A stretch of 20,491 bases of DNA. Source: Saccoglossus kowalevskii (lineage: Eukaryota > Hemichordata > Enteropneusta > Harrimaniidae). Shown in pieces: positions 1 to 20,491 of the stretch. The notes beneath the pieces were generated by a model. The model made no database searches. It saw nothing but the letters and a program-made list of their open reading frames with translations, and was not told the DNA's origin. The stretch is taken from the NCBI RefSeq assembly GCF_000003605.2, contig NW_003140221.1:1-20491 (forward strand). Reading direction: 5' to 3'. Positions within the stretch are counted from its first letter, which is position 1; every line of letters starts with the position of its first letter. The translations under genes and the position numbers were made by a program.

Positions 1-935
1 TTCTACAAACTTTGCACTCATTTTGTACAGCTTTGTACGCAATTTTAAAAGCTGACATCCACTATAGCCGACCGCGAGAGGGAGTTGTGCATTGAAAATA
101 CGTGCAAATTTTAAAACATTATATAAACTTAAATTATCAAAATAACCAGCACGACTTTCTGCTATAAAGGTGTCAAATTTCAATAATAAATTGAAATACA
201 AAAAAATGAGTGATGTCTTTTGCATGTTTGTTTCGGAACCAAACAAAAATGTATTTAACAACCTTGTTAGCTCAAGTAGTCTCCCAAGCAATTACGAGGC
301 ACACCCTATTGATCTTAACTATTGAGACTGGTCCATCACATGATCACACGACTACTGGGATCATTTGATTTCTATTCGAATTGGCGGCCATTTAATGTTT
401 GAAAGTGTTTCGAATTGTCATTCGTTCCACGTGTGTGTTTCGTAAGTTGACCTATGACCTACCCATGCTTCGAAAGTCATTACGATAGTAAACGGCGATT
501 TACGACATATTTATTCACTTTTTCTAACATTTAACGACGAGTCTCGAAAATATAGCAACATATGTCACATTTACATGTAATTTTGCTAACTTTACAACTA
601 CTTTTCACTACTTTGTAATCAGTTTGTTTATCATTTCACGGTTTCATAGTGGTATAATCTGCTAATGTATAAGACTTTTTCAACACCTTTGCTCATTTTT
701 TCTATATTTTTAACCGTGTTGTCGATATTACAATGACTTAGGTAAAATGTATTAGCAAAACCATCTACTTTGCTAATGCTTTTCTTATCGTTTTAGGATG
801 TTTTAGAACATGCTACGGTAAGCTCATAGGGCACTATTCTAATATACGAGACGTTCACTTGCATTTTATTCACTTTCCGTACTTTATAATTTTACGGTTA
901 GATATTACAACAACTTAGTTCAAACATACACGCTA
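1..935 (+). repeat. Monomer U1, divergent edge-type copy
   Basis: This 935-bp copy is phased from the conserved TTCTAC that opens the window. It carries GCGAGAG instead of GCAAGAG at about 73. Extra bases after AATAATAA at about 181-195 break the open frame seen in some other copies. At 475-560 it is the least standard copy in the window (GTCATTACGATAG, then CGACGAGTCTCGAAAA where others have CTATGGGTNTCNATAA). It shares the AATGAGTNATGTC and ACCAAACAAAAA variants with U20, about 17 kb away. The DR1-like site is intact at 448-460. Confidence 0.93.
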
Positions 936-1862
936 TTCTATCAACTTTACACTCACTTTGTACAGCTTTGTACGCAATTTTAATAGCTGACATCCACTAT
1001 AGCCGACCGCAAGAGGGAGTTGTGCATTGAAAATACGTGCAAATTTTTAAACATTCTATAAACTTAAATTATCAAAATAAACAGCGCGACTTTCTACTAT
1101 AAAGGTGTTACATTTCAATAATAAAAATACAAAAAAATGCGTTATGTCTTTTCCATGTTTGTTTCGGAATCAAAAAAATGTATTTCACCAGCTTGTTAGC
1201 TCAAGTAGTCTCCCATTCAATTACTAGCCACGCCCGATAGATGTTATCTTTTGTAACAGGCCCATCACATGTGATCACTCGACTACTGGGATAATTTGAA
1301 ATTTTTCGAATTGGCGGCCATTTAATCTGTGGAAGTGTTTCGAATTGTCATTCGTTTCACGTGTGTCTCTCGTAAGTTGACCTCTGACCTATCTATGCTT
1401 CGGAAGTCAGTACGTAGTAAATGGTAATTACGACATATTAATTCACTTTTCCTAGCATTTAACTATGGGTGTCGATAATATAACAACATAGGTCACATTT
1501 CCATGTAATTTTGCTAACTTTACAACTACTTTTCACTACTTGTAATCAGTTTGTTTATCATTTCACGGTTTCATAGTGGTATAATCTGCTAATGTTTAAG
1601 ACTTTTCCAACACCTTTGCTCATTTATTCTCTATTTTTAACCGTGTTGTCGATATTACAATGACTTAGATAAAATGTATTAGCAAACCCACCTACTTTTC
1701 TAATGCTTTTCCTATCGTTTTAGGATGTTTTAGAACATGCTACGGTAAGCTCATAGGGCACTATTCTAATATACGAGACGTTCACTTGCATTTTATTCAC
1801 TTTCCGTACTTTATAATTTTACGGTTAGATATGACAACAACTTAGTTCAAACATCCACGCTA
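936..1862 (+). repeat. Monomer U2, divergent subfamily shared with U18
   Basis: This 927-bp copy has a set of linked variants otherwise seen mainly in U18, and partly in U20: TATTTCACCAGC, ATTACTAGCCACGCCCG, TAACAGGCCCATC, TTAATCTGTGGAAG and CCTCTGACCTATCTATG. The open frame is interrupted (CGATAGATG at about 1229). The DR1-like site at 1378-1390 is intact with a C spacer instead of A. Confidence 0.95.
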
Positions 1863-2028
1863 TTCTACAAATTTTGCACTCACTTTGTACAGCTTTGTAC
1901 GCAATTTTAATAGCTGACATCCACTATAGCCGACCGCAAGAGGGAGTTGTGCATTGAAAATACGTGCACATTTTTAAACATTCTATAAACTTAAATTATC
2001 AAAATAAGCAGCACGACTTTCTGCTATA

Positions 2029-2213
2029 AAGGTGTTACATTTCAATAATAAAAATACAAAAAAATACTTTATGTCTTTTCCATGTTTGTTTCGGAACCCC
2101 CAAAAAATGTATTTAACAAGCTTGTTAGCTCAAGTAGTCTCCCATGCAATTACGAGGCACGCCCTATTGATCTTAACTTTTGTGACAGGTGCATCACATG
2201 ATCACACGACTAC
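2029..2213 (+). repeat. Internal subrepeat P1 (reference copy, in U3)
   Basis: The first of five diverged subrepeats that make up the monomer, shown here for U3. It opens AAGGTGTTACATTTCAAT, close to the AGGTCACATTTCAAT that opens P3 in the same unit. Further along, TTAGCTCAAGTAG and AATTACGAGG line up with TAAGCTCATAG and AATATACGAGA of P4, and TTAACTTTTGTGAC with TTAACCGTGTTGTC of P3. It needs indels of several bases to align, so this is one of the weaker members. It contains the C/A tract and most of the recurring open frame. Confidence 0.5.
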
Positions 2214-2418
2214 TGGGATCATTTGATTTCTATTCAAATTGGCGGCCATTTAATGTTTGAAAGTGTTTCGAATTGTCATTCGTTTCACGTGTGTCTTTCG
2301 TAAGTTGATCTGTGACCTATCCATGCTTCGAAAGTCAGTACGTTAGTAAACGGCCATTTACGACATATTAATTCGCGTTTCCTAATATTTAACTATGGGT
2401 CTCAATAATATAACAACA
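2214..2418 (+). repeat. Internal subrepeat P2 (reference copy, in U3)
   Basis: About 205 bp. It opens TGGGATCATTTG, resembling the P3 start TAGGTCACATTT. Its last 75 bases align well with the end of P4: TTAATTCACTTTTCC with TTTATTCACTTTCC, then ACAACATAGG with ACAACTTAG (consensus monomer spelling). It holds the E-box and the DR1-like site. The middle aligns poorly and probably carries an insertion of about 25 bp. Confidence 0.6.
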
Positions 2419-2595
2419 TAGGTCACATTTCAATGTAATTTTGCTAACTTTACAACTACTTTTCACTACTTTGTAATCAGTTAGTTTATCATTTCACGGT
2501 TTCATAGTGGTATAATCTGCTAATGTATAAGACTTTTCCAACACATTTGCCCATTTTACTATATTTTTAACCGTGTTGTCGATATTACAATGACT
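2419..2595 (+). repeat. Internal subrepeat P3 (reference copy, in U3)
   Basis: Exactly 177 bp from its TAGG to the next one. It opens TAGGTCACATTT and ends CGATATTACAATGACT. Colinear matches to P4 run along its whole length: ACTACTTTTCAC with CTACTTTTCTAA, ACGGTTTCATAG with ACGGTAAGCTCATAG, CTAATGTATAAGAC with CTAATATACGAGAC, and the shared closing GATAT...ACAA...ACTTAG. Small gaps of 1-3 bases are needed. Confidence 0.8.
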
Positions 2596-2772
2596 TAGGT
2601 AAAATGTATTAGCAAACCCACCTACTTTTCTAATGCTTTTCCTATCGTTTTAGGATGTTTTAGAACATGCTACTGTAAGCTCATAGGGCACTATTGTAAT
2701 ATACGAGACGTTCACTTGCATTTTATTCGCTTTCCATACTTTATAATTTTACGGTTAGATATGACAACAACT
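2596..2772 (+). repeat. Internal subrepeat P4 (reference copy, in U3)
   Basis: 177 bp long, directly after P3 and related to it along its whole length. It opens TAGGTAAAATGT and ends GATATGACAACAACT. By eye, a little over half the positions agree with P3 after small gaps. The second half of P4 is among the least variable parts of the monomer across the window. Confidence 0.8.
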
Positions 2773-2958
2773 TAGTTCAAACATACACGCTATTCTACCA
2801 ACTTTGCACTCACTTTGTACAGCTTTGTACGCAATTTTAATAGCTGACATCCACTATAGCCGACCGCAAGAGGGAGTTGTGCACTGAAAATACGTGCAAA
2901 TTTTTAAACATTCTATAAACTTAAATTATCAAAATAACCAGCACGACTTTCTGCTATA
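2773..2958 (+). repeat. Internal subrepeat P5 (reference copy, U3 into U4)
   Basis: 186 bp. It opens TAGTTCAAACAT, exactly 177 bp after the P4 start. The first third matches P3 (ACTTTGCACTCACTTTGTA with ACTACTTTTCACTACTTTGTA). The rest, with GCCGACCGC and CAAATTTTTAAACATTC, has drifted further. It ends at the AAGG that opens P1 of the next monomer. Confidence 0.6.
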
Positions 2959-3722
2959 AAGGTGTTACATTTCAATAATAAAAATACAAAAAAATACTTT
3001 ATGTCTTTTCCATGTTTGTTTCGGAACCAAAAAAAAATGTATTTAACAAGCTTGTTAGCTCAGGTAGTCTCCCATGCAATTACGAGGCACGCCCTATTAA
3101 TCTTAACTTTTGTGACAGGTCCATCATATGATCACTCGACTACTGGTATCATTTGAATTTTATTCGAATTGGCGGCCATTTAATGTTTGAAAGTGTTTCG
3201 AATTGTCAATCGTTTCACGTGTGTCTTTCGTAAGTTGACCTATGACATATACATGCTTCGAAAGTCAGTTCGTTAGTAGACGGCCGTTTACGACATATTA
3301 ATTCACCATTCCTAACATTTAACTATGGGTCTCAATAATATAACAACATAGGTCACATTTCCATGTAATTTTGCTAACTTTACAACTACTTTTCACTACT
3401 TTGTAATCAGTTTGTTTATAATTTCACGGTTTCATAGTGGTATAATCTGCTAATGTATAAGACTTTTTCAACACATTTGCCCATTTTACTATATTTTTAA
3501 CTGTGTTGTCGATATTACAATGACTTAGGTAAAATGTATTAGCAAACCCACCTACTTTTCTAATGCTTTTCCAATCGTTTTAGGATGTTTTAGAACATGC
3601 TACGGTAAGCTCATAGGGCACTATTCTAATATACGAGACGTTCACTTGCATTTTATTCACTTTCCGTACTTTATAATTTTACGGTTAGATATGACAACAA
3701 CTTAGTTCAAACATACACGCTA
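2793..3722 (+). repeat. Monomer U4, pair partner of U6
   Basis: A 930-bp copy sharing with U6, 1861 bp away, several linked variants: AGTCAGTTCGTTAGTAGACG, CGGCCGTTTACGAC, ATTCACC before the TTCC, GACTTTTTCAACAC and TTAACTGTGTTG. With U5 it shares GCACTGAAAATACG. The second DR1 half-site is broken (TGACAT). The frame at 2962-3156 is open from a GTG. Confidence 0.96.
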
Positions 3723-4653
3723 TTCTACCAACTTTGCACTCACTTTGTACAGCTTTGTACGCAATTTTAATAGCTGACATCCACTATAGCCGACCGCAAG
3801 AGGGAGTTGTGCACTGAAAATACGTGCACATTTTTAAACATTCTATAAACTTAAATTATCAAAATAACCAACACGACTTTTCTGGATATAAAGGTGTTAC
3901 ATTTCAATAATAAGAATACAAAAAATACTTTATGTATTCCATGTTTGTTTCGGAACCAAAAAATATGTATTTAACAAGCTTGTTAGCTCAAGTAGTCTCC
4001 CATGCAATTACGAGGCACGCCCTATTGATCTTAACTTTTGTGCCAGGTCCATCACATGATCACTCGACTACTGGGATCATTTGAATTTTATTCGAATTGG
4101 CGGCCATTTAATGTCTGAAAGTGTTTCGAATTGTCATTCGTATCACGTGTGTCTTTCGTATGTTGACCTATGACCTATCCATGCATCGAAAGTCAGTACG
4201 TTAGTGAACGGCCATTTACGATATATTAATTCACTTTTCCTAACATTTAACTATGGGTCTCAATAATATAACAACATAGGTCACATTTCCATGTAATTTT
4301 GCTAACTTTACAACTACTTGTCACTACTTTGTAAGCAGTTTGTTTATCATTTCACGGATTCATAATGGTATAATCTGCTAATGTATAAGACTTTTCCAAC
4401 ACATTTGCCCATTTTACTATATTTTTAACCGTGTTGTCGATATTACAATGACTTAGGTAAAAATGTATTAGCAAACCCACCTACTTTTTCCAATGCTTTT
4501 TCCTATCGTTTTAAGATGCTTTAGAACATGCTACGGTAAGCTCATAGGGCACTATTCTAATATACGAGACGTTCACTTGCATTTTATTCACTTTCCGTAC
4601 TTTATAATTTTACAGTTAGATATGACAACAACTTAGTTCAAACATACACGCTA
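3723..4653 (+). repeat. Monomer U5, mosaic copy
   Basis: A 931-bp copy combining markers of several types: GATATATT plus CACTTTTCC and CGGATTCAT (D type), with GTAAGCAG (C type). It also has the two-base-shorter TATGTATTCC that breaks the open frame. TTTCTGGATATAAAGG and ATGCATCGAAAG are private. ACAACTACTTGTCAC is shared only with the truncated unit U13. The DR1-like site is intact at 4164-4176. Confidence 0.95.
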
Positions 4654-5582
4654 TTCTACCAACTTTGCACTCACTTTGTACAGCTTTGTACGCAATTTTA
4701 ATAGCTGACATCCACTATAGCCGACCGCAAGAGGGAGTTGTGCATTGAAACTACGTGCACATTTTTAAACATTCTATAAACTTAAATTATCAAAATAACC
4801 AGCACGACTTTCTGCTATAAAGGTGTAACATTTCAATAATAAAAATACAAAAAAATACTTTATGTCTTTTCCATGTTTGCTTCGGAACCAAAAAAAATGT
4901 ATTTAACAAGCTTGTTAGCTCAAGTAGTCTCCCATGCAATTACGAGGCACGCCCTATTGATCTTAACTTTTGTGACAGGTCCATCACAAGATCACTCGAC
5001 TACTGGGATCATTTGAATTTTATTCGAATTGGCGGCCATTTAATGTTTGAATGTGTTTCGAATTATCATTCGTATCACGTGTGTCTTTCGTAAGTTGACC
5101 TATGACCTATCCATGCTTCGAAAGTCAGTTCGTTAGTAGACGGCCGTTTACGACATATTAATTCACCTTTCCTAACATTTAACTATGGGTCTCAATAATA
5201 TAACAACATAGGTCACATTTCCATGTAATTTTGCTAACTTTACAACTACTTTTCACTACTTTGTAATCAGTTTGTTTATCATTTCACGGTTTCATAGTGG
5301 TAAAATCTGCTAATGTATAAGACTTTTTCAACACATTTTCCCATTTTACTATGTTTTTAACTGTGTTGTCGATATTACAATGACTTAGGTAAAACGTATT
5401 AGCAAACCCACCTACTTTTCTAATGCTGTTCCTATCGTTTTAGGATGTTTTAGAACATGCTACGGTAAGCTCATAGGGCACTATTCTAATATACGAGACG
5501 TTCACTTGCATTTTATTCACTTGCCGTACTTTATAATTTTACGGTTAGATATGACAACAACTTAGTTCAAACATACACGCTA
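4654..5582 (+). repeat. Monomer U6, pair partner of U4
   Basis: A 929-bp copy with the U4-type block (TTCGTTAGTAGACGGCCG at about 5109). It shares TGTTTGCTTCGG with its right neighbour U7 and GAAACTACGTG with U8-U11. The C/A tract is one base short (C2A8), which shifts the open frame. The DR1-like site is intact at 5096-5108. Confidence 0.95.
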
Positions 5583-6510
5583 TTCTACCAACTTTGCACT
5601 CACTTTGTACAGCTTTGTACGCAATTTTAATAGCTGACATCCACTATAGCCGACCGCAAGAGGGAGTTGTGCATTGAAAATACGTGCAAATTTTTAAACA
5701 TTCTATAAACTTAAATTATCAAAATAACCAGCACGACTTTCTGCTGTAAATGTGTTACATTTCAATAATAAAAATACAAAAAATACTTTATGTCTTTTCC
5801 ATGTTTGCTTCGGAACCAAAAAAAAAATGTATTTAACAAGCTTGTTAGCTCAAGTAGTCTCCCATGCAATTACGAGGCACGCCCTATTGATCTTAACTTT
5901 TGTGACAGGTCCATAATATGATCACTCGACTACTGGGATCATTTGAATTTTATTCGAATTGGCGGCCATTTAATGTTTGAAAGTGTTTCGAATTGTCAAT
6001 CGTTTCACGTGTGTCTTTCGTAAGTTGACCTATGACCTATCCATGCTTCGAAAGTCAGTACGTTAGTAAACGGCCATTTACGACATATTAATTCACGTTT
6101 CCTGACATTTAACTATGGGGTATCAATAATATAACAACATAGGTCACATTTCCATGTAATTTTGCTAACTTACAACTACTTTCACTACTTTGTAAGCAGT
6201 TTGTTTATCATTTCACGGTTTCATAGTGGTATAATCTGCTAATTTATAAGACTTTTCCAACACATTTGCCCATTTTACTATATTTTAACCGTGTTGTCGA
6301 TATTACAATGACTTAGGTAAAATGTATTAGCAAACCCACCTACTTTTCCAATTCTTTTCCTATCGATTTAGGATGCTTTAGAACATGCTACGGTAAGCTC
6401 ATAGGGCACTATTCTAATATACAAGACGTTCACTTGCATTTTATTCACTTTCCGTACTTTATAATTTTACGGTTAGATATGACAACAACTTAGTTCAAAC
6501 ATACACGCTA
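5583..6510 (+). repeat. Monomer U7, C type (dimer member)
   Basis: A 928-bp copy, first of the C type in the alternating dimer block: TACGACATATT, CACGTTTCC, GTATCAATAAT, ACAACTAC, GTAAGCAG and CGGTTTCAT. Private changes include CTGCTGTAAATGTG and CCATAATATG, the latter putting a stop in the recurring frame. The DR1-like site is intact at 6026-6038. Confidence 0.95.
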
Positions 6511-6931
6511 TTCTACCAATTTTGCACTCACTTTGTACAGCTTTGTACGCAATTTTAATAGCTGACATCCACTATAGCCGACCGCAAGAGGGTGTTGTGC
6601 ATTGAAACTACGTGCACATTTTTAAACATTTTATAAACTTAAATTATCAAAATAACCAGCACGACTTTCTGCTATAAAGGTGTTACATTTCAATAATAAA
6701 AATACTAAAAAATACTTTATGTATTCCATGTTTGTTTCGGAACCAAAAAAAAATGTATTTAACAAGCTTGTTAGCTCAAGTAGTCTCCCATGCAATTACG
6801 AGGCACGCCCTATTGATCTTAACTTTTGCGCCAGGTCCATCACATGATCACACGACTAGTGGGATCATTTGAATTTTATTCGAATTGGCGGCCATTTAAT
6901 GTTTGAAAGTGTTTCGAATTGTCATTCGTAT

Positions 6932-6937
6932 CACGTG
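6932..6937. promoter_or_regulatory. Conserved CACGTG E-box (representative, U8)
   Basis: The palindrome CACGTG is present in all 22 monomers that cover this position, in the context TTTCACGTGTG or TATCACGTGTG. The ATCACGTG form also fits RTCACRTG, the site of basic helix-loop-helix proteins such as yeast Cbf1. The motif and its constancy are seen. Binding is not shown, and a six-base motif inside a repeat is conserved partly by common descent. Confidence 0.5.
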
Positions 6938-6951
6938 TGTCTTTCGTATGT

Positions 6952-6964
6952 TGACCTATGACCT
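6952..6964 (-). promoter_or_regulatory. DR1-like TGACCT direct repeat (representative, U8)
   Basis: TGACCT, one base, TGACCT: on the minus strand this is AGGTCA N AGGTCA, the direct-repeat-1 layout used by RXR, HNF4 and COUP-type nuclear receptors of animals. Both half-sites are intact in 17 of 22 copies; starts are 448, 1378, 4164, 5096, 6026, 6952, 7880, 8808, 9737, 10669, 11335, 12265, 13198, 14129, 15985, 16915 and 19713. The spacer is A in most and C in U2, U18 and U22. A further AGGTCA half-site lies about 110 bp downstream on the plus strand (7066-7071 in U8). Function is unproven. Confidence 0.45.
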
Positions 6965-7438
6965 ATCCATGCTTCGAAAGTCAGTACGTTAATAAACGGC
7001 CATTTACGATATATTAATTCACTTTTCCTAACATTTAACTATGGGTGTCGATAATATAACAACATAGGTCACATTTCCATGTAATTTTGCTAACTTTGCA
7101 ACCACTTTTCACTACTTTGTAATCAGTTTGTTTATCATTTCACGGATTCATAGTGGTATAATATGCTAATGTATAAGACTTTTCCAACACATTTGCCCAA
7201 TTTACTATAATTTTAACCGTGTTGTCGATATTACAATGACTTAGGTAAAATGTATTAGCAAACCCACCAACTTTTCCAATGCTTTTCCTATCGTTTTAGG
7301 ATGCTTTAGAACATGCTACGGTAAGCTCATAGGGCACTATTCTAATATACGAGACGTTCACTTGCATTTTATTCACTTTCCGTACTTTATAATTTTACGG
7401 TTAGATATGACAACAACTTAGTTCAAACATACACGCTA

Positions 7439-8366
7439 TTCTACCAACTTTGCACTCACTTTGTACAGCTCTGTACGCAATTTTAATAGCTGACATCCAC
7501 TATAGCCGACCGCAAGAGGGAGTTGTGCATTGAAACTACGTGCACATTTTTAAACATTCTATAAACTTAAATAATTAAAATAACCAGCACGACTTTCTGC
7601 TATAAAGGTGTTACATTTCAATAATAAAAATACAAAAAAATACTTTATGTATTCCATGTTTGTTTCGGAACCCCAAAAAAATGTATTTAACAAGCTGGTT
7701 AGCTCAAGTAGTCTCCCATGCAATTACGAGGCACGCCCTATTGATCTTAACTTTTGTGTCAGGTCCATCACATGATCACTCGACTACTGGGATGATTTGA
7801 ATTTTATTCGAATTTGCGGCCATTTAATGTTTGAAAGTGTTTCGAATTGTCATTCGTATCACGTGTGTATTTCGTATGTTGACCTATGACCTATCCATGC
7901 TTCGAAAGTCAGTACGTTAGTAAACGGCCATTTACGACATATTAATTCGCGTTTCCTAACATTTAACTATGGGTATCAATAATATAACAACATAGGTCAC
8001 ATTTCCATGTAATTTTGCTAACTTTACAACTACTTTTCACTACTTTGTATGCAGTTTGTTTATCATTTCACGGTTTCATAGTGGTATAATCTGCTAATGT
8101 ATAAGACTTTTCCAACACATTTGCCCATTATACTATATTTTTAACCGTGTTGTCGATATTACAATGACTTAGGTAAAATGTATTAGCAAACCCACCTACT
8201 TTTCCAATGCTTTTCCTATCGTTTTAGGATGCTTTAGGACATGCTACGGTAAGCTCATTGGGCAATATTCTAATATACGAGACGTTCACTTGCATTTTAT
8301 TCACTTTCCGTACTTAATAATTTTACAGTTAGATATGACAACAACTTACTTCAAACATAAACGCTA
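7439..8366 (+). repeat. Monomer U9, C type, twin of U11
   Basis: A 928-bp C-type copy. Three more variants are shared with U11, 1857 bp away, and not with U7: CAGCTCTGTAC, GGGCAATATTC and AACTTACTTCAAAC. This makes U9-U10 and U11-U12 the youngest-looking dimers. Private changes include GAATTTGCGGCC, which loses the usual TGGCGG, and GTGTGTATTTCG. The DR1-like site is intact at 7880-7892. Confidence 0.95.
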
Positions 8367-9295
8367 TTCTACCAACTTTGCACTCACTTTGTACAGCTTT
8401 GTACGCAATTTTAATAGCTGACATCCACTATAGCCGACCGCAAGAGGGAGTTGTGCTTTGAAACTACGTGCACATTTTTAAACATTCTATAAACTTAAAT
8501 TATCAAAATAACCAGCACGACTTTCTGCTGTAAAGGTGTTACATTTCAATAATAAAAATACAAAAACATACTTTATGTCTTTTCCATGTTTGTTTCGGAA
8601 CCAAAAAAATGTATTTAACAAGCTTGTTAGCTCAAGTAGTCTCCCATGCAATTACGAGGCTCGCCCTATTGATCTTAACTTTTGTGACAGGAACATCACA
8701 TGATCACTCGACTACTGGGATCATTTGAATTTTATTCGAATTGGCGGCCATTTAATGTTTGAAAGTGTATCGAATTGTCATTCGTATCACGTGTGTCTTT
8801 CGTATGTTGACCTATGACCTATCCATGCTTCGAAAGTCAGTACGTTAATAAATGGCCATTTACGATATATTAATTCACTTTTCCTAACATTTAACTATGG
8901 GTGTCGATAATATAACAACATAGGTCACATTTCCATGTAATTTTGCTAACTTTGCAACCACTTTTCACTACTTTGTAATCAGTTTGTTTATCATTTCACG
9001 GATTCATAGTGGTATAATCTGCTAATATATGAGGCTTTTCCAACACATTTGCTCATTATTTCTATATTTTTAACTGTGGGGTCGATATTACAATGACTTA
9101 GGTAAAATGTATTAGCAAACCCACCTAATTTTCTAACGCTTTTCCTATCGTTTTAGGATGCTTTAGAACATGCTACGGTAAGCTCATAGGGCACTATTCT
9201 AATATACGAGACGTTCACTTGCATTTTATTCACTTTCCGTACTTTATAATTTTACGGTTAGATATGACAACAACTTAGTTCAAACATACACGCTA
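8367..9295 (+). repeat. Monomer U10, D type with ATATATGAGGC variant
   Basis: A 929-bp D-type copy and the first to carry the linked pair GCTAATATATGAGGC and CTGTGGGGTCG, also found in U12, U14, U15 and U17. CCTAATTTTCTAACGC is shared with U14. Private changes are TGCTTTGAAAC, GGCTCGCCC and ACAGGAACATC. The DR1-like site is intact at 8808-8820. Confidence 0.95.
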
Positions 9296-10224
9296 TTCTA
9301 CCAACTTTGCACTCACTTTGTACAGCTCTGTACGCAATTTTAATAGCTGACATCCACTATAGCCGACCGCAAGAGGGAGTTGTGCATTGAAACTACGTGC
9401 ACATTTTTAAACATTCTATAAACTTAAATTATCAAAATAACCAGCACGACTTTCTGCTATAAAGGTGTTACATTTCAATAATAAAAATACAAAAAAATAC
9501 TTTATGTATTCCATGTTTGTTTCGGAACCCAAAAAAAATGTATTTAACAAGCTTGTTAGCTCAAGTAGTCTCCCATGCAATTACGAGGCACGCCCTATTG
9601 ATCTTAACTTTTGTAACAGGTCCATCACATGATCACTCGACTACTGGGATCATTTGAATTTTATTCGAATTGGCGGCCATTTAATGTTTGAAAGTGTTTC
9701 GAATTGTCATTCGTATCACGTGTGTCTTTCGTAAGTTGACCTATGACCTATCCATGCTTCGAAAGTCAGTACGTTAGTAAACGGTCATTTACGACATATT
9801 AATTCACGTTTCCTAACATTTAACTATGGGTATCAATAATATAACAACATAGGTCACATTTCCATGTAATTTTGCTAACTTTACAACTACTTTTCACTAC
9901 TTTGTAAGCAGTTTGTTTATCATTTCACGGTTTCATAGTGGTATAATCTGCTAATGTATAAGACTTTTCCAACACATTTGCCCATTTTACTATATTTTTA
10001 ACCGTGTTGTCGATATTAAAATGACTTAGGTAAAATGTATTAGCAAACCCACTTACTTTTCCAATGCTTTTCCTATCGTTTTAGGATGCTTTAGAACATG
10101 CTACGGTAAGCTCATAGGGCAATATTCTAATATACGAGACGTTCACTTGCATTTTATTCACTGTCCGTACTTTATAATTTTTACGGTTAGATATGACAAC
10201 AACTTACTTCAAACATACACGCTA
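9296..10224 (+). repeat. Monomer U11, C type, twin of U9
   Basis: A 929-bp C-type copy with the U9-specific trio (CAGCTCTGTAC, GGGCAATATTC, AACTTACTTC). The two-base-shorter TATGTATTCC breaks the frame. The C/A tract is C3A8. The DR1-like site is intact at 9737-9749. Confidence 0.95.
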
Positions 10225-11147
10225 TTCTACCAACTTTGCACTCACTTTGTACAGCTTTGTACGCAAATTTTAATAGCTGACCTCCACTATAGCCGACCGC
10301 AAAAGGGAGTTGTGCATTGAAAATACGTGAAAATTTTTAAACATTCTAAAAACTTAAATTATCAAAATAACCAGCACGACTTTCTGCTATAAAGGTGTTA
10401 CATTTCAATAATAAAAATCCAAAAAAATACTTTATGTCTTTTCCATGTTTGTTTCGGAACCCCAAAAAAATGTATTTAACAACCTTGTTAGCTCAAGTAG
10501 TCTCCCATGCAATTACGAGGCACGCCCTATTGATCTTAACTTTTGTGTCAGGTCCATCACATGATCACTCGACTACTGGGATCATTTGAATTTTATTCGA
10601 ATTGGCGGCCATTTAATGTTTGAAAGTGTTTCGAATTGTCATTCATATCACGTGTGTCTTTCGTATGTTGACCTATGACCTATCCATGCTTCGAAAGTCA
10701 GTACGTTAGTAAACGGCCAATTACGATATATCAATTCACTTTTCCTAACATTTAACTATGGGTGTCGATAATATAACAACATAGGTCACATTTAAATGTA
10801 ATTTTGCTAACTTTGCAACCACTTTTCACTACTTTGTAATTAGTTTGTTTGTCATTTCACGGATTCATAGTGGTATAATCTGCTAATATATGAGGCTTTT
10901 CCAGCACATTTGCTCATTTTTTCTATATTTTTAACTGTGGGGTCGATATTACAATGACTTAGGTAAAATGTATTAGCAAACCCACCTACTTTTCCAATGC
11001 TTTTCCTATCGTTTTAGGATGTTTTAGAACATGCTACGGTAAGCTCATAGGGCACTATTCTAATATACGAGACGTTCACTTGCATTTTATTCACTTTCCG
11101 TACTTTATAATTTTACGGTTAGATATGACAACAACTTAGTTCAAACA
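10225..11147 (+). repeat. Monomer U12, D/A type, joined to truncated U13
   Basis: This copy runs 923 bp and lacks only its last nine bases, because the next unit is joined at AACA (11144-11147). It introduces the CCTCCACTATAGCC and GCAAAAGGG variants seen again in U14-U16. By eye it differs from U15 at only about a dozen positions, sharing CATTCATATCACG, GATATATCAATTC and TAATTAGTTTGTTTGTC. The frame at 10395-10589 is open from GTG. The DR1-like site is intact at 10669-10681. Confidence 0.95.
11144..11147. other. Deletion junction with 4-bp microhomology (AACA)
   Basis: The left side reads TTAGTTCAAACA, which in intact copies continues TACACGC. The right side in intact copies reads ATGTATTTAACA before ACCTTGTTAGC. 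The shared AACA is present once at the join. The deletion is about 265 bp relative to U14. This pattern fits microhomology-mediated joining or slippage; unequal exchange between misaligned copies would more often keep monomer register. Confidence 0.85.
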
Positions 11148-11821
11148 ACCTTGTTAGCTCAAGTAGTCTCCCATGCAATTACGAGGCACGCCCTATTGAT
11201 CTTAACATTTGTGACAGGTCCATCACATGATCACACGACTACTGGGATCATTTGATATCAATTCGAATTGGCGGCCTTTTAATGTTTGAAAGTGTTTCGA
11301 ATTGTCATTCGTTTCACGTGTGTCTTCGGTATGTTGACCTATGACCTATCCATGCTTCGAAAGTCAGTACGTTAGTAAACGGCCATTTACGATATATTAA
11401 TTCACTTTTCCTAACATTTAACTATGGGTCTCAATAATATAACAACATAGGTCACATTTCCATGTAATTTTGCTAACTTTACAACTACTTGTCACTACTT
11501 TGTAATCAGTTTGTTAATCATTTCACGGTTTCATAGTGGTATAATCTGCTAATGTATAAGACTTTTCCAACACATTTGCCCATTTTACTATATTTTTAAC
11601 TGTGGGGTCGATATTACAATGACTTAGGTAAAATGTATTAGCAAACCCACCTAATTTTCCAACGCTTTTCCTATCGTTTTAGGATGTTTTAGAACATGCT
11701 ACGGTAAGCTCATAGGGCACTATTCTAATATACGAGACGTTCACTTGCATTTTATTCACTGTCCGTACTTTATAATTTTACGGTTAGATATGACAACAAC
11801 TTAGTTCAAACATACACGCTA
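11148..11821 (+). repeat. Monomer U13, truncated by ~265 bp
   Basis: This 674-bp unit is missing the end of the previous monomer and its own first quarter. The sequence passes from TTAGTTCAAACA directly to ACCTTGTTAGCTC. Measured on U14, the missing stretch is about 265 bp: the conserved core with GCCGACCGC, the TATAAA-like site, the C/A tract and the start of the recurring frame. ACTACTTGTCAC is shared with U5. GTCTTCGGTATG and TTTGATATCAATTCG are private. The DR1-like site is retained at 11335-11347. Confidence 0.95.
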
Positions 11822-12251
11822 TTCTACCAACTTTGCACTCACTTTGTACAGCTTTGTACGCAATTTTAATAGCTGACCTCCACTATAGCCGACCGCAAAA
11901 GGGAGTTGTGCATTGAAAATACGTGCAAATTTTTAAACATTCTATAAACTTAAATTATCAAAATAACCAGCACGACTTTCTGCTATAAAGGTGTTACATT
12001 TCAATAATAAAAATACAAAAAAATACTTTATGTCTTTTCCATGTTTGTTTCGGAACCCCCCAAAAATGTATTTAACAACCTTGTTAGCTCAAGTAGTCTC
12101 CCATGCAATTACGAGGCACGCCCTATTGATCTTAACTTTTGTGTCAGGTCCATCACATGATCACTCGACTACTGGGATCATTTGAATTTTATTCGAATTG
12201 GCGGCCATTTAATGTTTGAAAGTGTTTAGAATTGTCATTCGTATCACGTGT
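11664..12251 (+). repeat. Exact duplicate block, copy 1 (588 bp)
   Basis: This stretch covers the end of U13 and the first 430 bases of U14. I find no difference from 13528-14115, at a constant offset of 1864 bp. It is bounded on the left by AACGC versus AATGC and on the right by GTGTG versus GTGTA. Such identity stands out against the usual several differences per 100 bases between other monomers. Confidence 0.85.
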
Positions 12252-12752
12252 GTCTTTCGTATGTTGACCTATGACCTATCCATGCTTCGAAAGTCAGTAC
12301 GTTAGTAAACGGCCATTTACGATATATTAATTCACTTTTCCTAACATTTAACTATGGGTGTCGATAATATAACAACATAGGTCACATTTCCATGTAATTT
12401 TGATAACTTTGCAACCACTTTTCACTACTTTGTAATCAGTTTGTTTATCATTTCACGGATTCATAGTGGTATAATCTGCTAATATATGAGGCTTTTCCAA
12501 CTCATTTGCTCATTTTTTCTATATTTTTAACTGTGGGGTCGATATTACAATGACTTAGGTAAAATGTATTAGCAAACCCACCTAATTTTCTAACGCTTTT
12601 CCTATCGTTTTAAGATGTTTTAGAACATGCTACGGTAAGCTCATAGGGCACTATTCTAATATACGAGACGTTCACTTGCATTTTATTCACTGTCCGTACT
12701 TTATAATTTTACGGTTAGATATGACAACAACTTAGTTCAAACATACACGCTA
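11822..12752 (+). repeat. Monomer U14, twin of U16 in its first 430 bp
   Basis: A 931-bp copy. I see no difference between its first 430 bases and those of U16, including the C6A5 tract and the TTTAGAATTGTC variant found only in these two. Its second half is D type (TTTGCAACCAC, CGGATTCAT, ATATATGAGGC, GTGGGGTCG). The frame at 11991-12185 is open from GTG. The DR1-like site is intact at 12265-12277. Confidence 0.95.
12056..12066. repeat. C/A homopolymer tract, constant length (representative, U14)
   Basis: After TTCGGAA each monomer has a run of C followed by a run of A up to TG. Observed forms are C2A9 (U4, U8, U19, U23), C3A8 (U11), C4A7 (U9, U12, U15), C5A6 (U3) and C6A5 (U14, U16), all totalling 11 bases. 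U6, U17, U21 and U22 have 10, U7 has 12 and U10 has 9. The tract is a simple barcode for telling monomers apart. Confidence 0.85.
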
Positions 12753-13685
12753 TTCTACCAACTTTGCACTCACCGTTTGTACGGCTTTGTACGCAATTTT
12801 AATAGCTGACCTCCACTATAGCCGACTGCAAAAGGGAGTAGTGCATTGAAAATACGTGAAAATTTTTAAACATTCTATAAACTTAAATTATCAAAATAAC
12901 CAGCACGACTTTCTGCTATAAAGATGTTACATTTCAATAATAAAAATACAAAAAAATACTTTATGTCTTTTCCATGTTTGTTTCGGAACCCCAAAAAAAT
13001 GTATTTAACAACCTTGTTAGCTCAAGTAGTCTCCCATGCAATTACGAGGCACGCCCTATTGATCTTAACTTTTGTGTCAGGTCCATCACATGATCACTCG
13101 ACTACTGGGATCATTTGAATTTTATTCGAATTGGCGGCCATTTAATGTTTGAAAGTGTTTCGAATTGTCATTCATATCACGTGTGTCTTTCGTATGTTGA
13201 CCTATGACCTATCCATGCTTCGAAAGTCAGTACGTTAGTAAACGGCCATTTACGATATATCAATTCACTTTTCCTAACATTTAACTATGGGTGTCGATAA
13301 TATAACAACATAGGTCACATTTCCATGTAATTTTGCTAACTTTGCAACCACTTTTCACTACTTTGTAATTAGTTTGTTTGTCATTTCACGGATTCATAGT
13401 GGTATAATCTGCTAATATATGAGGCTTTTACAGCACATTTGCTCATTTTTTCTATATTTTTAACTGTGGGGTCGATATTACAATGACTTAGGTAAAATGT
13501 ATTAGCAAACCCACCTACTTTTCCAATGCTTTTCCTATCGTTTTAGGATGTTTTAGAACATGCTACGGTAAGCTCATAGGGCACTATTCTAATATACGAG
13601 ACGTTCACTTGCATTTTATTCACTGTCCGTACTTTATAATTTTACGGTTAGATATGACAACAACTTAGTTCAAACATACACGCTA
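12753..13685 (+). repeat. Monomer U15, near-copy of U12
   Basis: A 933-bp copy with about a dozen differences from U12. Its private changes are a 2-bp CG insertion at about 12773 (CACCGTTTGTACGG), GCCGACTGC, GGGAGTAGTG and AAAGATGTTAC. The last change gives the recurring frame (12924-13118) a real ATG, the only copy where this happens. The DR1-like site is intact at 13198-13210. Confidence 0.95.
12924..13118 (+). other. Recurring 64-codon open frame, probably not a gene
   Basis: The same frame is open at 2032-2226, 2962-3156, 10395-10589, 11991-12185, 12924-13118, 13855-14049, 14786-14977 (63 codons) and 16641-16835. Only this copy, in U15, starts with ATG; the others have GTG at that place, and an internal ATG follows 13 codons later. 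In most other monomers the frame is broken by indels in the C/A tract, by the shorter TATGTATTCC, or by stops. The predicted peptide has one hydrophobic stretch (about residues 26-51) and no domain I recognise. Differences between copies show no obvious preference for third positions. I judge it a shadow of the repeat. Confidence 0.2.
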
Positions 13686-14115
13686 TTCTACCAACTTTGC
13701 ACTCACTTTGTACAGCTTTGTACGCAATTTTAATAGCTGACCTCCACTATAGCCGACCGCAAAAGGGAGTTGTGCATTGAAAATACGTGCAAATTTTTAA
13801 ACATTCTATAAACTTAAATTATCAAAATAACCAGCACGACTTTCTGCTATAAAGGTGTTACATTTCAATAATAAAAATACAAAAAAATACTTTATGTCTT
13901 TTCCATGTTTGTTTCGGAACCCCCCAAAAATGTATTTAACAACCTTGTTAGCTCAAGTAGTCTCCCATGCAATTACGAGGCACGCCCTATTGATCTTAAC
14001 TTTTGTGTCAGGTCCATCACATGATCACTCGACTACTGGGATCATTTGAATTTTATTCGAATTGGCGGCCATTTAATGTTTGAAAGTGTTTAGAATTGTC
14101 ATTCGTATCACGTGT
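13528..14115 (+). repeat. Exact duplicate block, copy 2 (588 bp)
   Basis: The matching block to 11664-12251, covering the end of U15 and the first 430 bases of U16. Immediately to the right the sequence changes to C-type markers, so the right boundary looks like an exchange point and not simply a point where drift begins. Confidence 0.85.
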
Positions 14116-14616
14116 ATCTTTCGTAAGTTGACCTATGACCTATCCATGCTTCGAAAGTCAGTACGTCAGTAAACGGCCATTTACGACATATTAATTCACG
14201 TTTCCTAACATTTAACTATGGGCTGTCGATAATATAACAACATAGGTCACATTTCCATGTAATTTTGCTAACTTTACAACTACTTTTCACTACTTTGTAA
14301 GCAGTTTGTTTATCGTTTCACGGTTTCATAGTGGTATAATCTGCTAATGTATAAGACTTTTCAAACACATTTGCCCATTTTACTATATTTTTAACCGTGT
14401 TGTCGATATTACAATGACTTAGGTAAAATGTATTAGCAAACCCACCTACTTTTCCTATGCTTTTCCTATCGTTTTAGGATGCTTTAGAACATGCTACGGT
14501 AAGCTCATAGGGCACTATTCTAATATACGAGACGTTCAATTGCATTTTGTTCACTTTCCGTACTTTATAATTTTACGGTTAGATATGACAACAACTTAGT
14601 TCAAACATACACGCTA
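13686..14616 (+). repeat. Monomer U16, B/C mosaic
   Basis: A 931-bp copy that matches U14 up to about 14115. It then switches to C-type markers (GTAAGTTGACC, CACGTTTCC, ACAACTAC, GTAAGCAG, CGGTTTCAT, CCGTGTTGTCG). Private changes include GGGCTGTCG and CAATTGCATTTTGTTC. The frame at 13855-14049 is open from GTG. The DR1-like site is intact at 14129-14141. Confidence 0.94.
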
Positions 14617-15544
14617 TTCTACTAAGTTTGCACTGACTTTGTACAGCTTTGTACGCAATTTTAATAGCTGACATCCACTATAGCCGACCGCAAGAGGGAG
14701 TTGTGCATTGAAACTACGTGCAAATTTTTAAACATTCTATAAACTTAAATTATCAAAATAACCAGCACGACTTTCTGCTATAAAGGTGTTACATTTCAAT
14801 AATAAAAATACAAAAAAATACTTTATGTATTCCATGTTTGTTTCGGAACCAAAAAAAATGTATTTAACAAGCTTGTTAGCTCAAGTAGTCTCCCATGCAA
14901 TTACGAGGCACGCCCTATTGATCTTAACTTTTGTGACATGTCCATCACATGATCACTCGACTACTGGGATCATTTGAATTTTATTCGAATTGGCGGCCAT
15001 TTAATGTTTGAAAGTGTTTTGAATTGTCATTCGTTTCACGTGTGTCTTTCGTAAGTTGACCTCTAACCTATCTATGCTTCGAAAGTCAGTACGTTAGTAA
15101 ACGGCCATTTACGACATATTAATTCACTTTTCCTAATATATAACTATGGGTCTCATTAATATAACAACATAGGTCACATTTCCATGTAATTTTGCTAACT
15201 TTACAACCACTTTTCACTACTTTGTAATCAGCTTGTTTATCATTTCACGGATTCATAGTGGTATAATCTGCTAATATATGAGGCTTTTCCAACACATTTG
15301 CTCATTTTTTCTATATTTTTAACTGTGGGGTCGATATTACAATGACTTAGGTAAAATGTATTAGCAAAACCACCTACTTTTCTAATGCTTTTCCTATCGT
15401 TTTAGGATGTTTTAGAACATGCTACGGTAAGCTCATAGGGCACTATTCTAATATACGAGACGTTCACTTGCATTTTATTCACTTTCCGTACTTTATAATT
15501 TTACGGATACATATGACATCAACTTAGTTCAAACATACACGCTA
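14617..15544 (+). repeat. Monomer U17, transition to right-edge type
   Basis: A 928-bp copy carrying GACATGTCCATC, shared with U21 and U22, together with the central ATATATGAGGC and GTGGGGTCG variants. The frame at 14786-14977 stays open by two compensating deletions: two bases at TATGTATTCC and one base in the C/A tract. The second DR1 half-site is lost (CTAACC). TACGGATACATATGACATC near its end is private. Confidence 0.95.
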
Positions 15545-16471
15545 TTCTACCAACTTTGCACTCACCTTGTACAGCTTTGTACGCAATTTTAATAGATGAC
15601 ATCCACGATAGCCGACCGCAAGAGGGAGTTGTGAAATGAAAATACGTGCAAATTTTTAAACATTCTATAAACTTAAATTATCAAAATAACCAGCACGACT
15701 TTCTACTATAAAGGTGTTACATTTCAATAATAAAAATACAAAAAAAAGCATTATGTCTTTTCCATTTTTGTTTCCGAACCCCAAAAAATGTATTTCACCA
15801 GCCTTAACTCAATTAGTCTCCCATGCAATTACTAGCCGCGCCCGATAGATCTTAACTTTTGTAACAGGCCCATCCCATGATCACTCGACTACTGAGATCA
15901 TTTTATTTTTTTCGAATTGGCGGACCATTTAATCTGTGGAAGTGTTTCGAATTGCCATTCGTTTCACGTGTGTCTTTCGTAAGTTGACCTCTGACCTATC
16001 TATGCTTCGAAAGTCAGTACGTTAGTAAACGGCCATTTACGACATATTAATTCACTTTTCCTAACATTTAACTAAGGGTGTCGATAATATAACAACATAG
16101 GTCACATTTCCATGTAATTATGCTAACTTTACAACTACTTTTCACTACTTTGTAATCAGTTTGTTTATCATTTCACGGTTTCATAGTGGTATAATCTGCT
16201 AATGTATAAGACTTTTCCAACACCTTTGCTCATTTTTTCTATATTTTTAACCGTGTTGTCGATATTACAATGACTTAGGTAAAATGTTTTAGCAAACCCA
16301 CCTACTTTTCTAATACTTTCCTATCGTTTTAGGATGTTTTAGAACATGCTACGGTAAGCTCATAGGGCACTATTCTAATATACGAGACGTTCACTTGCAT
16401 TTTATTCACTTTCCGTACTTTATAATTTTACGGCTAGATATGACAACAGCTTAGTTCAAACATACACGCTA
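15545..16471 (+). repeat. Monomer U18, divergent subfamily shared with U2
   Basis: A 927-bp copy with the U2 set: TATTTCACCAGC, ATTACTAGCCGCGCCCG, TAACAGGCCCATC, TTAATCTGTGGAAG and TTTCTACTATAAAGG. Private changes include GTGAAATGAAAATACG, CATTTTTGTTTCCG, CAGCCTTAACTCAATTAG (a short deletion) and GGCGGACCATT. The open frame is destroyed. The DR1-like site is intact at 15985-15997 with a C spacer. Confidence 0.95.
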
Positions 16472-17402
16472 TTCTACCAACTTTGCACTCACTTTGTACA
16501 GCTTTGTACGCAATTTTTATAGCTGAAATCCACTATAGCCGAACGCAAGAGGGAGTTGTGCATTGAAAATACGTGCAAATTTTTAAACATTCTATAAACT
16601 TAAATTATCAAAATAACCAGCACGACTTTATACTATAAAGGTGTTACATTTCCATAATAAAAATACAAAAAAATACTTTATGTCTTTTCCATGTTTGTTT
16701 CGGAACCAAAAAAAAATGTATTTAACAAGCTTGTTAGCTCAAGTAGTCTCCCATGCAATTACGAGGCACGCCCTATTGATCTTAACTTTTGTGACTGGTC
16801 CATCACATGATCACTCGACTACAGGGATCATTTGAATTTTATTCGAATTGGCGGCCATTTAATCTTTGGAAGTGTTTCGAATTGTCATTTTTATCACGTG
16901 TGTCTTTCGTAAGTTGACCTATGACCTACCCATGCTTCGAAAGTCAGAACGTTAGTAAACGGCCATTTACGACATATTAATTCACGATTCCTAACATTTA
17001 ACTATTGGTGTCAATAATATAACAACATAGGTCACATTTCCATGTAATTTTGCTAACTTTACAACTACTTTTTACTACTTTGTAATCAGTTTGTTTATCA
17101 TTTCATGGTTTCATAGTGGCTTAAACTGCTAATGTATAAGACTTTTCCAACACCTTTGCTCTTTTTTTCTATATTTTTAACCGTGTTGTCGATATTACAA
17201 TGACCTAGGTAAAATGTATTTGCAAAACCACCTACTTTTCTAATGCTTTTCCTATCGTTTTAGGATGTTTTAGAACATGCTACGGTAAGCTCATAGGGCA
17301 CTATTCTAATATACGAGACGTTCACTTGCATTTTATTCACTTTCCGTACTTTATAATTTTACGGTTAGATATGACAACAACTTAGTTCAAACATACACGC
17401 TA
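16472..17402 (+). repeat. Monomer U19, right-edge type
   Basis: A 931-bp copy with TTAATCTTTGGAAG, also in U20-U22. GCTGAAATCC, GCCGAACGC, CATTTCCATAATAAA, GTGGCTTAAACTGC and GACCTAGG are mostly private. The frame at 16641-16835 is open from GTG. The DR1-like site is intact at 16915-16927. Confidence 0.95.
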
Positions 17403-18337
17403 TTCTACCAACTTTGCACTCACATTGTACAGCTTTGTAGGCAATTTCATTAGCTGACATCCACTATAGCCGACCGCAAGAGGGAGTTGTGCATTGAAAA
17501 TACGTGCAAATTTTTAAACATTCTATAAACTTAAATTATCAAAATAACCAGCACGACTTTCTGCTATAAAGGTGTTGCATTTCCATAATAAATATACACA
17601 AAAATGAGTTATGTCTTTTCCATGTTTTGTTTCGGAACCAAACAAAAAAATGTATTTCACCAGCTTGTTAGCTCAAGTCTTCTCCTGTGCAATTACTAGC
17701 CACGCCCCATAGATCTTACATTTTGTGACAGGCCCATCACATGATCAGTTGACTACTGGGATCATTTGAATTTTATTCGAATTGGCGGCCATATTAATCT
17801 TTGGAAGTGTTTCGAATTGTCATTCGTTTCACGTGTGTCTTTCGTAAGTTGATCTCCGACCTATCTATGCTTCGAAAGTCAGTACGTTAGTAAACAGCCA
17901 TTTACGACATAATAATTCACTTTTCCTAACATTTAACTATGGGTGTCGATAATATAACAACATAGGTCACATTTCCATGTAATTTTGCTAACTTTACAAC
18001 TACTTTTCACTACTTTGTAATCAGTTTGTTTATCATTTCACGGTTTCATAGTGGTATAATCTGCTAATGTATAAGACTTTTCCAACACCTTTGCTCATTT
18101 TATCTATATTTTTAACCGTGTTGTCGATATTACAATCACTTAGGTAAAATGTATTAGCAAAATCACCTACTTTTCTAATGCTTTTCCTATCGTTTTAGGA
18201 TGTTTTAGAACATGCTACGGTAAGCACATAGGGCACTATTCTAATATACGAGACGTTCACTTGCATTTTATTCACTTTCCGTACTTTATAATTTTACGGT
18301 TAGATATGACAACAACTTAGTTCAAACATACACGCTA
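17403..18337 (+). repeat. Monomer U20, mosaic of edge subfamilies
   Basis: A 935-bp copy with AATGAGTTATGTC and ACCAAACAAAA (as in U1), CACCAGCTTG and ATTACTAGCCACGCCCC (as in U2 and U18), and GATCTCCGACC, AAACAGCC and CATAATAATTC (as in U21). Both DR1 half-sites are changed (TGATCT and CGACCT). Confidence 0.94.
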
Positions 18338-19270
18338 TTCTACCAACTTTGCACTCACTTTGTACAGCTTTGTACGCAATTTTTATAGGTGACATCCACT
18401 ATAGCCGACCGCAAGAGGGAGTTGTGCATTGAAAATACGTGCAAATTATTAAACATTCTATAAACTTAAATTATCAAAATAACCAGCACGACTTTCTGCT
18501 ATAAAGGTGTTACATTTCAATAATAAAAATACAAAAATATACTTTATGTCTTTTCCATGTTTGTTTCGGAACCAAAAAAAATGTATTTAACAAGCTTGTT
18601 AGCTCAAGTAGTCTCCCATGCAATTACGAGGCACGCCCTATTGATCTTAACTTTTGTGACATGTCCATCACATGATCACTCGACTACTGGGATCATTTGA
18701 ATTTTATTCAAATTGGCGGCCATTTAATCTTTGGAAGTGTTTCGAATTGTCATTCGTTTCACGTGTGTCTTTCGTTAGTTGATCTCCGACCTATCTATGC
18801 TTCGAAAGTCAGTACGTTAGTAAACAGCCATTTACGACATAATAATTCACTTTTCCTAACATTTAACTATGGGTGTCGATAAATATAACAACATAGGTCA
18901 CATTTCCATGTTATTTTGCTAACTTTACAACTACTTTTCACTACTTTGTAATCAGTTTGTTTATCATTTCACGGTTTCATAATGGTATAATCTGCTAATG
19001 TATAAGACTTTTCCAAAACCTTTGTTCGTTTTTTTCTATATTTTTAACCGTGTTGTCGATATTACAATTGACTTAGGTAAAATGTATTAGCAAAACCACC
19101 TACTTTTCTAATGCTTTTCCTATCGTTTTAGGATGTTTTAGAACATTCTACGGTAAGCTCATAGGGCACTATTCTAATATACGAGACGTTCACTTGCATT
19201 TTATTCACTTTCCGTACTTTATAATTTTACGGTTAGATATGACAACAACTTAGTTCAAACATACACGCTA
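18338..19270 (+). repeat. Monomer U21, bridges U20 and U22
   Basis: A 933-bp copy. Its first part resembles U22 (AAATTATTAAAC, AAAATATACTTT, GACATGTCC) and its middle resembles U20 (GATCTCCGACC, AAACAGCC, CATAATAATTC). ATTCAAATTGG and GATAAATATAAC are private. A short unrelated open frame (18697-18882) exists only because of local changes and starts with TTG, so I do not call it a gene. The DR1-like site is degraded. Confidence 0.95.
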
Positions 19271-20200
19271 TTCTACCAACTTTGCACTCACTTTGTACAG
19301 CTTTGTACGCATTTTTTATAACTGACATCCACTATAACCGACCGCAAGAGGGAGTTGTGCATTGAAAATACGTGCAAATTATTAAACATTCTATAAACTT
19401 AAATTATCAAAATAACCAGCACGACTTTCTGCTATAAAGGTGTTACATTTCAATAATAAAAATACAAAAATATACTTTATGTCTTTTCCATGTTTGTTTC
19501 GGAACCAAAAAAAATGTATTTAACAAGCTTGTTAACTCAAGTAGTCTCCCATGCAATTACGAGGCACGCCCTATTGATCTTAACTTTTGTGACATGTCCA
19601 TCACATGATCATTCGACTACTGGGATCATTTGAATTTTATTCGAATTGGCAGCCATTTAATCTTTGGAAGTGTTTCGAATTGTCATTCGTTTCACGTGTG
19701 TCTTTCGTAAGTTGACCTCTGACCTATCTATGCTTCGAAAGTCAGTACGTTACTAAACGGCCATTTACGACATATTAATTCACTTTTCCTGACATTTAAC
19801 TATGGGCGTCGATAATATAACAAAATAGGTCACATTTCCATTTAATTTTGCTAACCTTACAACTACTTTTCACTACTTTGTAATCAGTTTGTTTATCATT
19901 TCACGGTTTCATGGTGGTATAATCTGCTAATGTATAAGACTTTTCCAACACCTTTGCTGATTTTTTCTATATTTTTAACCGTGTTGTCGATATTACAATG
20001 ACTTAGGTAAAATGTATTAGCAAAACCACCTACTTTTCTAATGCTTTTCCTATCGTTTTAGGATGTTTTAGAACATGCTACGGTAAGCTCATAGGGCACT
20101 ATTCTAATATACGAGACGTTCACTTGCATTTTATTCACTTTCCGTACTTTATAATTTTACGGTTAGATATGACAACAACTTAGTTCAAACATACACGCTA
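19271..20200 (+). repeat. Monomer U22, right-edge type
   Basis: A 930-bp copy sharing its start with U21. The anchor is changed to AACCGACC and the first A-box context to GCATTTTTTATAACTG. Other private changes are TTGGCAGCC, GTTACTAAACGG, GGGCGTCG and AACAAAATAGG. The DR1-like site is restored or retained at 19713-19725 with a C spacer. Confidence 0.95.
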
Positions 20201-20491
20201 TTCTACCAACTTTGCACTCACTTTGTATAGCTTTGTACGCAATTCTTATAGCTGACATCCACTATAGCCGACCGCAAGATGGAGTTGTGCATTGAAAATA
20301 CGTGCAAATTTTTAAACATTTTATAAACTTAAATTATCAAAATAACCAGCACGACTTTCTGCTAAAAAGGTGTTACATTTCAATAATAAAAATACAAAAA
20401 AATACGTTATGTCTTTTCCATGTTTGTTTCGGAACCAAAAAAAAATGTATTTAACAAGTTGTTAGAACAAGTAGTCTCCCAGGCAATTACG
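20201..20491 (+). repeat. Monomer U23, partial at window end
   Basis: The first 291 bases of another monomer, cut by the window edge. Differences from its neighbours are TTTGTATAGC, AATTCTTATAGC, GCAAGATGGAG, CTGCTAAAAAGG (which loses the TATAAA string) and GTTAGAACAAG. The array clearly continues to the right. Confidence 0.95.

Follow-up and report, generated by a model that had tools for sequence, protein, structure and literature searches.

Satellite monomers longer than 500 bp may have a composite structure (PMC12692304), and TmSat2 of Tribolium madens has a 704-bp monomer that is filled throughout by seven subunits of ~110 bp, some of them inverted (PMC13081366). These subunits are 49.5-92.9% alike and 59-113 bp long, and a 408-bp segment of the monomer once called extraneous was later found to consist of related subunits (PMC13081366). 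In satellite I of cervids and bovids, each monomer holds 18-21 subrepeats of 31 bp at a GC content of ~51%, and copies at the same position are more alike across species than copies within one monomer (PMC7835801). An 807-bp toad satellite is reported to have almost no internal repeats (PMC9385698).

The locus analysed here, a window of 20,491 nucleotides (the whole stretch of DNA under study), resembles TmSat2 in having a long monomer built from much-diverged, unequal subunits of a shorter ancestral repeat, here 54-65% alike. However, its subrepeats measure 177 bp, are all direct, number 2.75 and take up about half of the monomer, the comparison being one of anatomy. Cervid and bovid satellite I likewise has a monomer of ~0.9 kb that contains old internal subrepeats, but here the subrepeats are 177 bp long and the GC content is ~34%. 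The proposed joint amplification of several nucleosome-sized monomers as a longer unit recalls the higher-order repeats of primate alpha satellite, and the predicted curvature from A/T tracts recalls the curved pericentric satellites of insects (both reviewed in PMC8122249); in contrast to the latter, the phasing here reaches its greatest strength in one part of the monomer, and it involves TT on one strand. TmSat2 appears to be the nearest described anatomy among the systems compared. We consider it likely that about half of the monomer (positions 324-811 of the consensus, cons) is made of one ~177-bp sequence in three related tandem versions, the last of them incomplete; this assessment covers the anatomy, and the order of events is judged separately. 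The anatomy of the satellite would thus be corrected to nearly three old 177-bp copies in half of the repeat, not five, and an old 177-bp repeat recorded within a younger 930-bp one would exemplify a known route to satellite complexity.

A ~930-bp, AT-rich, non-coding satellite fills the whole window as a single tandem array, with 20 full-length units, a fused pair and an incomplete unit at either end (Table 1). A blastn search of the window with one unit, U3, returned 24 pieces in order and head-to-tail at 92.9-96.1% identity, the query itself excluded, and these pieces span the window, except that a few bases where units begin or end stay unaligned. Such a head-to-tail array of one unit in many copies, here over 20.5 kb, is characteristic of satellite DNA. 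The 20 complete units, when aligned, showed a mean pairwise identity of 94.5% (range 90.8-97.9%) and lengths of 927-935 bp, with a consensus of 930 bp to which U3 is identical at 906 of 930 bases. The preliminary description had presented U3 as a single 930-bp monomer, and this is borne out, the same unit being repeated across the whole window. The GC fraction is 0.33-0.35 all along the window, and CpG is undepleted (30 sites, observed/expected 1.15).

Table 1. Coordinates of the array, of unit U3 with its parts, and of the deletion.
Feature	Window position	Strand	Consensus position, length	Basis
Tandem array, ~930-bp satellite	1..20491	+		blastn with unit 2029-2958 and alignment of complete units
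Part units at array ends	1-166 and 20367-20491
Fused pair of units, short by ~264 bp	10392-11987
U3, monomer under study	2029..2958	+	930 bp	blastn and unit alignment
Part without detectable subrepeat homology	2029..2352	+	cons 1-323	all pieces tested non-significant
R1, subrepeat	2353..2530	+	cons 324-501, 178 bp	lag-177 alignment
R2, subrepeat	2531..2706	+	cons 502-678, 177 bp in consensus, 176 in U3	lag-177 alignment
R3, subrepeat, incomplete	2707..2839	+	cons 679-811, 133 of 177 positions	found by R1+R2 profile
Part without detectable subrepeat homology	2840..2958	+	cons 812-930	profile against shuffles
Least variable 180 bp of monomer	2659..2838	+	cons 631-810	substitutions among units
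Deletion junction, ~264 bp	11144..11147	+		blastn pieces 10392-11147 and 11144-11987, 4-bp overlap

The window holds no open reading frame of at least 100 aa. A Pfam search gave no match for seven of the nine stop-to-stop frames of at least 40 aa, the remaining two being the same frames in the next unit. Rfam gave no match for either the whole window or one unit, and no tRNA was found. As in other satellites, neither coding capacity nor a known RNA was detected. The predicted fold of window 2840-3180 was no better than that of shuffles, 91 of 100 of which folded at least as well; a GC-richer stretch, GCTGACATCCACTATAGCCGACCGCAAGAGGGAGTTGTGC, lies at window 2843-2882, in the part without subrepeats, and it has no RNA family match. 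The site resembling the CENP-B box, TTCGNNNNANNCGGG, which would mark a CENP-B-box satellite, had no match in the window with at most one mismatch, where 1.18 would be expected by chance. In non-eukaryotic collections, from which little follows, the unit had no match among plasmids and one 24-base stretch had none among genome and viral contigs; none of six short consensus stretches was found in the main text of the papers searched.

Whichever of four scoring schemes was used, circular self-alignment of the consensus gave a best score that none of 200 dinucleotide shuffles reached, with a narrow margin in the strictest scheme (32 against a largest shuffle of 31). Since TT steps are phased at ~10.4 bp and 177 bp corresponds to ~17 turns, extra shuffles were run that kept either the phase classes or every T position, and in none of six such tests did any of the 200 shuffles score as high as the consensus itself (z 3.9-14.8). 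With stricter gaps, the alignment at lag 177 joined cons 324-634 to cons 502-811 at 58% identity, and the alignment at lag 354 joined cons 299-454 to cons 653-809 at 62%. The diagonals near 177 bp that the preliminary description had led us to look for are therefore present. The resulting block corresponds to window 2353-2839 in U3 and covers 488 of the 930 bp, or about 2.75 copies. Its third member, R3, was found with a profile of R1 and R2 (z 11.9, 0/1000 shuffles as high). The preliminary interpretation is thus supported in part, in that older ~177-bp tandem copies are present inside a longer amplified unit, and diverged subrepeats within a longer homogenised monomer are the mark of complex-monomer satellites.

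Under a high gap cost the three subrepeats align nearly ungapped, with identities of 100/177 for R1-R2 (one gap), 82/133 for R1-R3 and 72/133 for R2-R3, that is 54-62%; at a gap opening of 14 the corresponding values are 112/172, 85/132 and 79/129, with 7, 2 and 3 gap events, or 61-65%. Their divergence of 38-46% (nearly ungapped) or 35-39% (gapped) compares with a mean of ~5.5% between 930-bp units. As in higher-order repeats, the monomers thus differ more within a unit than between units (54-65% against 94.5% identity). A shortage of indels between the subrepeats was considered and withdrawn: the indel/substitution ratio among units predicts 9 (raw) to 13 (corrected) indels between R1 and R2, where one is seen at high gap cost, but when gaps are made cheaper the alignment has 7-9 gap events with 112-114 identities, and simulated pairs with 4-9 indels at 60-65% identity fit about equally well (21/150 matching the observation at 60% with 4 indels, 22/150 at 65% with 9 indels and 16/150 at 55% with none).

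Other candidate registers and shorter repeats were rejected. A wider block starting at cons 217, suggested by looser scoring, was dropped, the segment 217-323 being unrelated and the signal coming from the 3′ part of the block. The apparent subrepeat at cons 757-933 in the first register (5/500 shuffles as high, local) was explained by 757-811, since 812-930 alone was matched by 480/500. A half-unit structure (83/94 bp) of the 177-bp repeat is not claimed: lags 83 and 94 are raised, but the self-alignments were not clearly above shuffles (17/300 as high at best for the majority sequence, and 25/300 and 57/300 for S4 and S2, where S2-S4 are parts of the first, wider register); S3 was suggestive in one scoring scheme (1/300 plain, 9/300 T-mask) and not in the other. 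A 21-bp basic repeat was likewise set aside, as lag 21 is raised and its multiples unevenly so, and this was attributed to the T phasing.

The preliminary description had filled the monomer with five subrepeats, P1 to P5, of which only ~2.75 copies (488/930 bp) are detectable, so that the five-part structure is unsupported. The part lengths given do sum to 930, and the P3-P4 and P4-P5 spacings are 177 in U3 when the proposed starts are taken. Across the array, a fuzzy motif tally found a spacing of 177 or 178 at 20 of 51 sites from P3 to P4 and at 21 of 40 sites from P4 to P5; with ~22 units in the array, the remaining sites are mostly spurious. On the other hand, the lengths 185, 205 and 186 are spacings over sequence that mostly lacks subrepeat homology. 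When the ten pairs of parts were aligned against shuffles, four were clear (P2-P3, P2-P4, P3-P4 and P3-P5; 0/500 global, 0-1/500 local) and P4-P5 was weak (8/500 global, 106/500 local), whereas the four pairs with P1 and P2-P5 lay at or near chance (44-375/500 global, 36-420/500 local), the nearest being P1-P4 (44 global, 36 local). Near the P1 and P3 starts of U3, two short resemblances of 13 nt (92%) and 17 nt (82%) sit at differing spacings, 388 and 360 respectively.

The remaining 442 bp, which take in P1, the greater part of P2 and two thirds of P5, showed no detectable relation to the subrepeats on either strand in profile searches. The segment cons 217-323 (P2 minus its first ~32 bp and last ~66 bp) gave no match (891/1000 shuffles as high), nor did cons 812-930, the last 119 bp of P5 (924/1000; reverse strand 383/500), and the R1+R2 profile found nothing significant in cons 1-108, cons 109-216 or the joined remainder. 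A three-copy profile run on 1-162, 163-323 and 217-323 on both strands was likewise non-significant, the nearest result being 217-323 in reverse (35/500). In simulations, relatives sharing 60% identity with the ancestor were detected in 37/40 cases at 177 bp and in 33/40 at 119 bp, and at 55% identity in 24/40 and 11/40, respectively. Since the 442 bp stay at chance despite this simulated power, they are either unrelated to R1-R3 or more diverged than these. Internal repetition of the remainder (812-930 joined to 1-216) is not claimed, 22-28/300 shuffles being as high. To our knowledge, every part of an alpha-satellite higher-order unit is a monomer, whereas here 442 of the 930 bp are not recognisably so, within the stated power, and the CENP-B-box-like site is absent within one mismatch. 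The locus therefore departs from a higher-order repeat in the sense of a unit built throughout from copies of the basic monomer.

On the + strand, TT steps recur with a period of 10.40 bp (power 21.5, 0/300 shuffles as high). When the parts are taken singly, this phasing peaks in P3 (0/300) and is significant otherwise only in P4 (5/300), the values for P2, P5 and P1 being 36/300, 47/300 and 207/300; the signal comes mostly from 100-bp consensus windows starting at 251-601 and 701-751. AA steps are unpeaked at 10.4 bp, their best period being a weak 11.04 bp (11/300 shuffles as high); for all WW steps together the count was 19/300. The curvature predicted over 125 bp with a wedge table is high in P3 and reaches 176 degrees from ~cons 412, which exceeds every one of 60 shuffles (largest 163), while over 84 bp its maximum of 129 degrees falls short of the top shuffle (132). 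With its T runs on one helix face, the 177-bp part would be expected to bend, and could give nucleosomes a regular placement. In-phase T sites were not significantly less variable among units than out-of-phase ones (p 0.22), so constraint on the phasing is not supported. We regard it as improbable that helical phase and bend, and not the letters themselves, are what has been maintained in the 177-bp part, with the array preserving DNA shape and nucleosome spacing; in this reading, copies that are only ~60% identical would keep a spacing of 17 helical turns and T runs on one face. Its probability was lowered because the indel shortage was withdrawn. If the phasing were under selection, this would be a case of DNA shape and spacing outlasting sequence, as has often been proposed for satellite DNA.

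The phasing also suggests a reading in which the 177-bp repeats are no family at all and arise from T runs at the helical repeat (177 being ~17 x 10.4) without common descent. The highest autocorrelation lags of the consensus do in many cases lie near multiples of 10.45 bp, but the shuffles that preserve phase classes or T positions fail to reproduce the self-alignment, and R1 and R2 match at 100 of 177 columns with a single gap, which together make this account very improbable. The opposite extreme, that all 930 bp are five diverged copies of a ~180-bp satellite with the first, second and last mostly past recognition, agrees with the monomer being about 5.25 x 177 bp, with a loose local alignment at lag 354 (23-454 against 376-809), and with the P1-P4 scores and short resemblances noted above. 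Furthermore, R2 and R3 are only 54% alike nearly ungapped, so subrepeats too diverged to be detected could make up the 442 bp, and the 408-bp segment of TmSat2 once called extraneous offers a close precedent (PMC13081366); the same correction is possible for the 442 bp here. Nevertheless, five of the ten proposed pairs are indistinct from shuffles, profile searches of the 442 bp do no better than chance on either strand although relatives at 60% identity were recovered in most simulations, and T phasing is undetectable in P1, so that we consider five copies unlikely. The three-copy anatomy, with R3 incomplete, is thus the reading that we follow.

As for its origin, a ~177-bp tandem repeat would have come first and its copies would then have diverged, after which a stretch of 2.75 copies together with 442 bp of sequence that is different or further diverged would have been amplified by unequal exchange or rolling-circle re-insertion, with exchange between the 930-bp units maintaining their similarity. 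The preliminary description had envisaged an old ~180-bp satellite frozen into the amplified unit; of this, the diverged 177-bp copies inside the 930-bp unit stand, while their number is about 2.75 rather than five. The order in which an old 177-bp satellite preceded the 930-bp amplification is plausible and close to even with a rival in which the 177-bp block arose by local duplication within an existing single 930-bp-like unit, and not from an older, long 177-bp satellite. That only 2.75 copies are seen agrees with local duplication, which we hold to be a real possibility at somewhat less than an even chance; nothing separates it from the older-satellite order. The greater divergence of subrepeats than of units is not decisive here, because homogenisation resets how far the units differ from one another. 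The likeliest role of the array, inferred from the predicted bend, the spacing and the general pattern reviewed in PMC8122249, is that of ordinary satellite chromatin, in pericentromeric or other heterochromatin.

Variation among the units is uneven along the monomer. The least variable stretch, which forms the end of the subrepeat block (Table 1), carries 48 substitutions in 180 sites x 20 units, a rate of 0.0133 that none of 1000 column permutations matched; this is ~2.4-fold below the monomer average, the rates in two compared parts being 0.031-0.032, and may reflect either constraint or recent homogenisation. Similarity drops slowly with distance along the array, from 0.950 between neighbours to 0.93-0.94 for units 12 or more places apart, a pattern that local exchange would produce, and the table of similarity by unit distance shows no regular multi-unit period. 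The only large deletion in the array joins unit position 755 to position 87 of the next unit, leaving 1596 bp where two units would occupy 1860. As the ~264 bp lost is not a multiple of 177, the subrepeats were not in-register recombination partners in that single case. Four units, U1 and U2 (window 167-2028), U16 (15711-16637) and U18 (17569-18503), carry 44-53 differences from the consensus; the other 16 carry 24-35.
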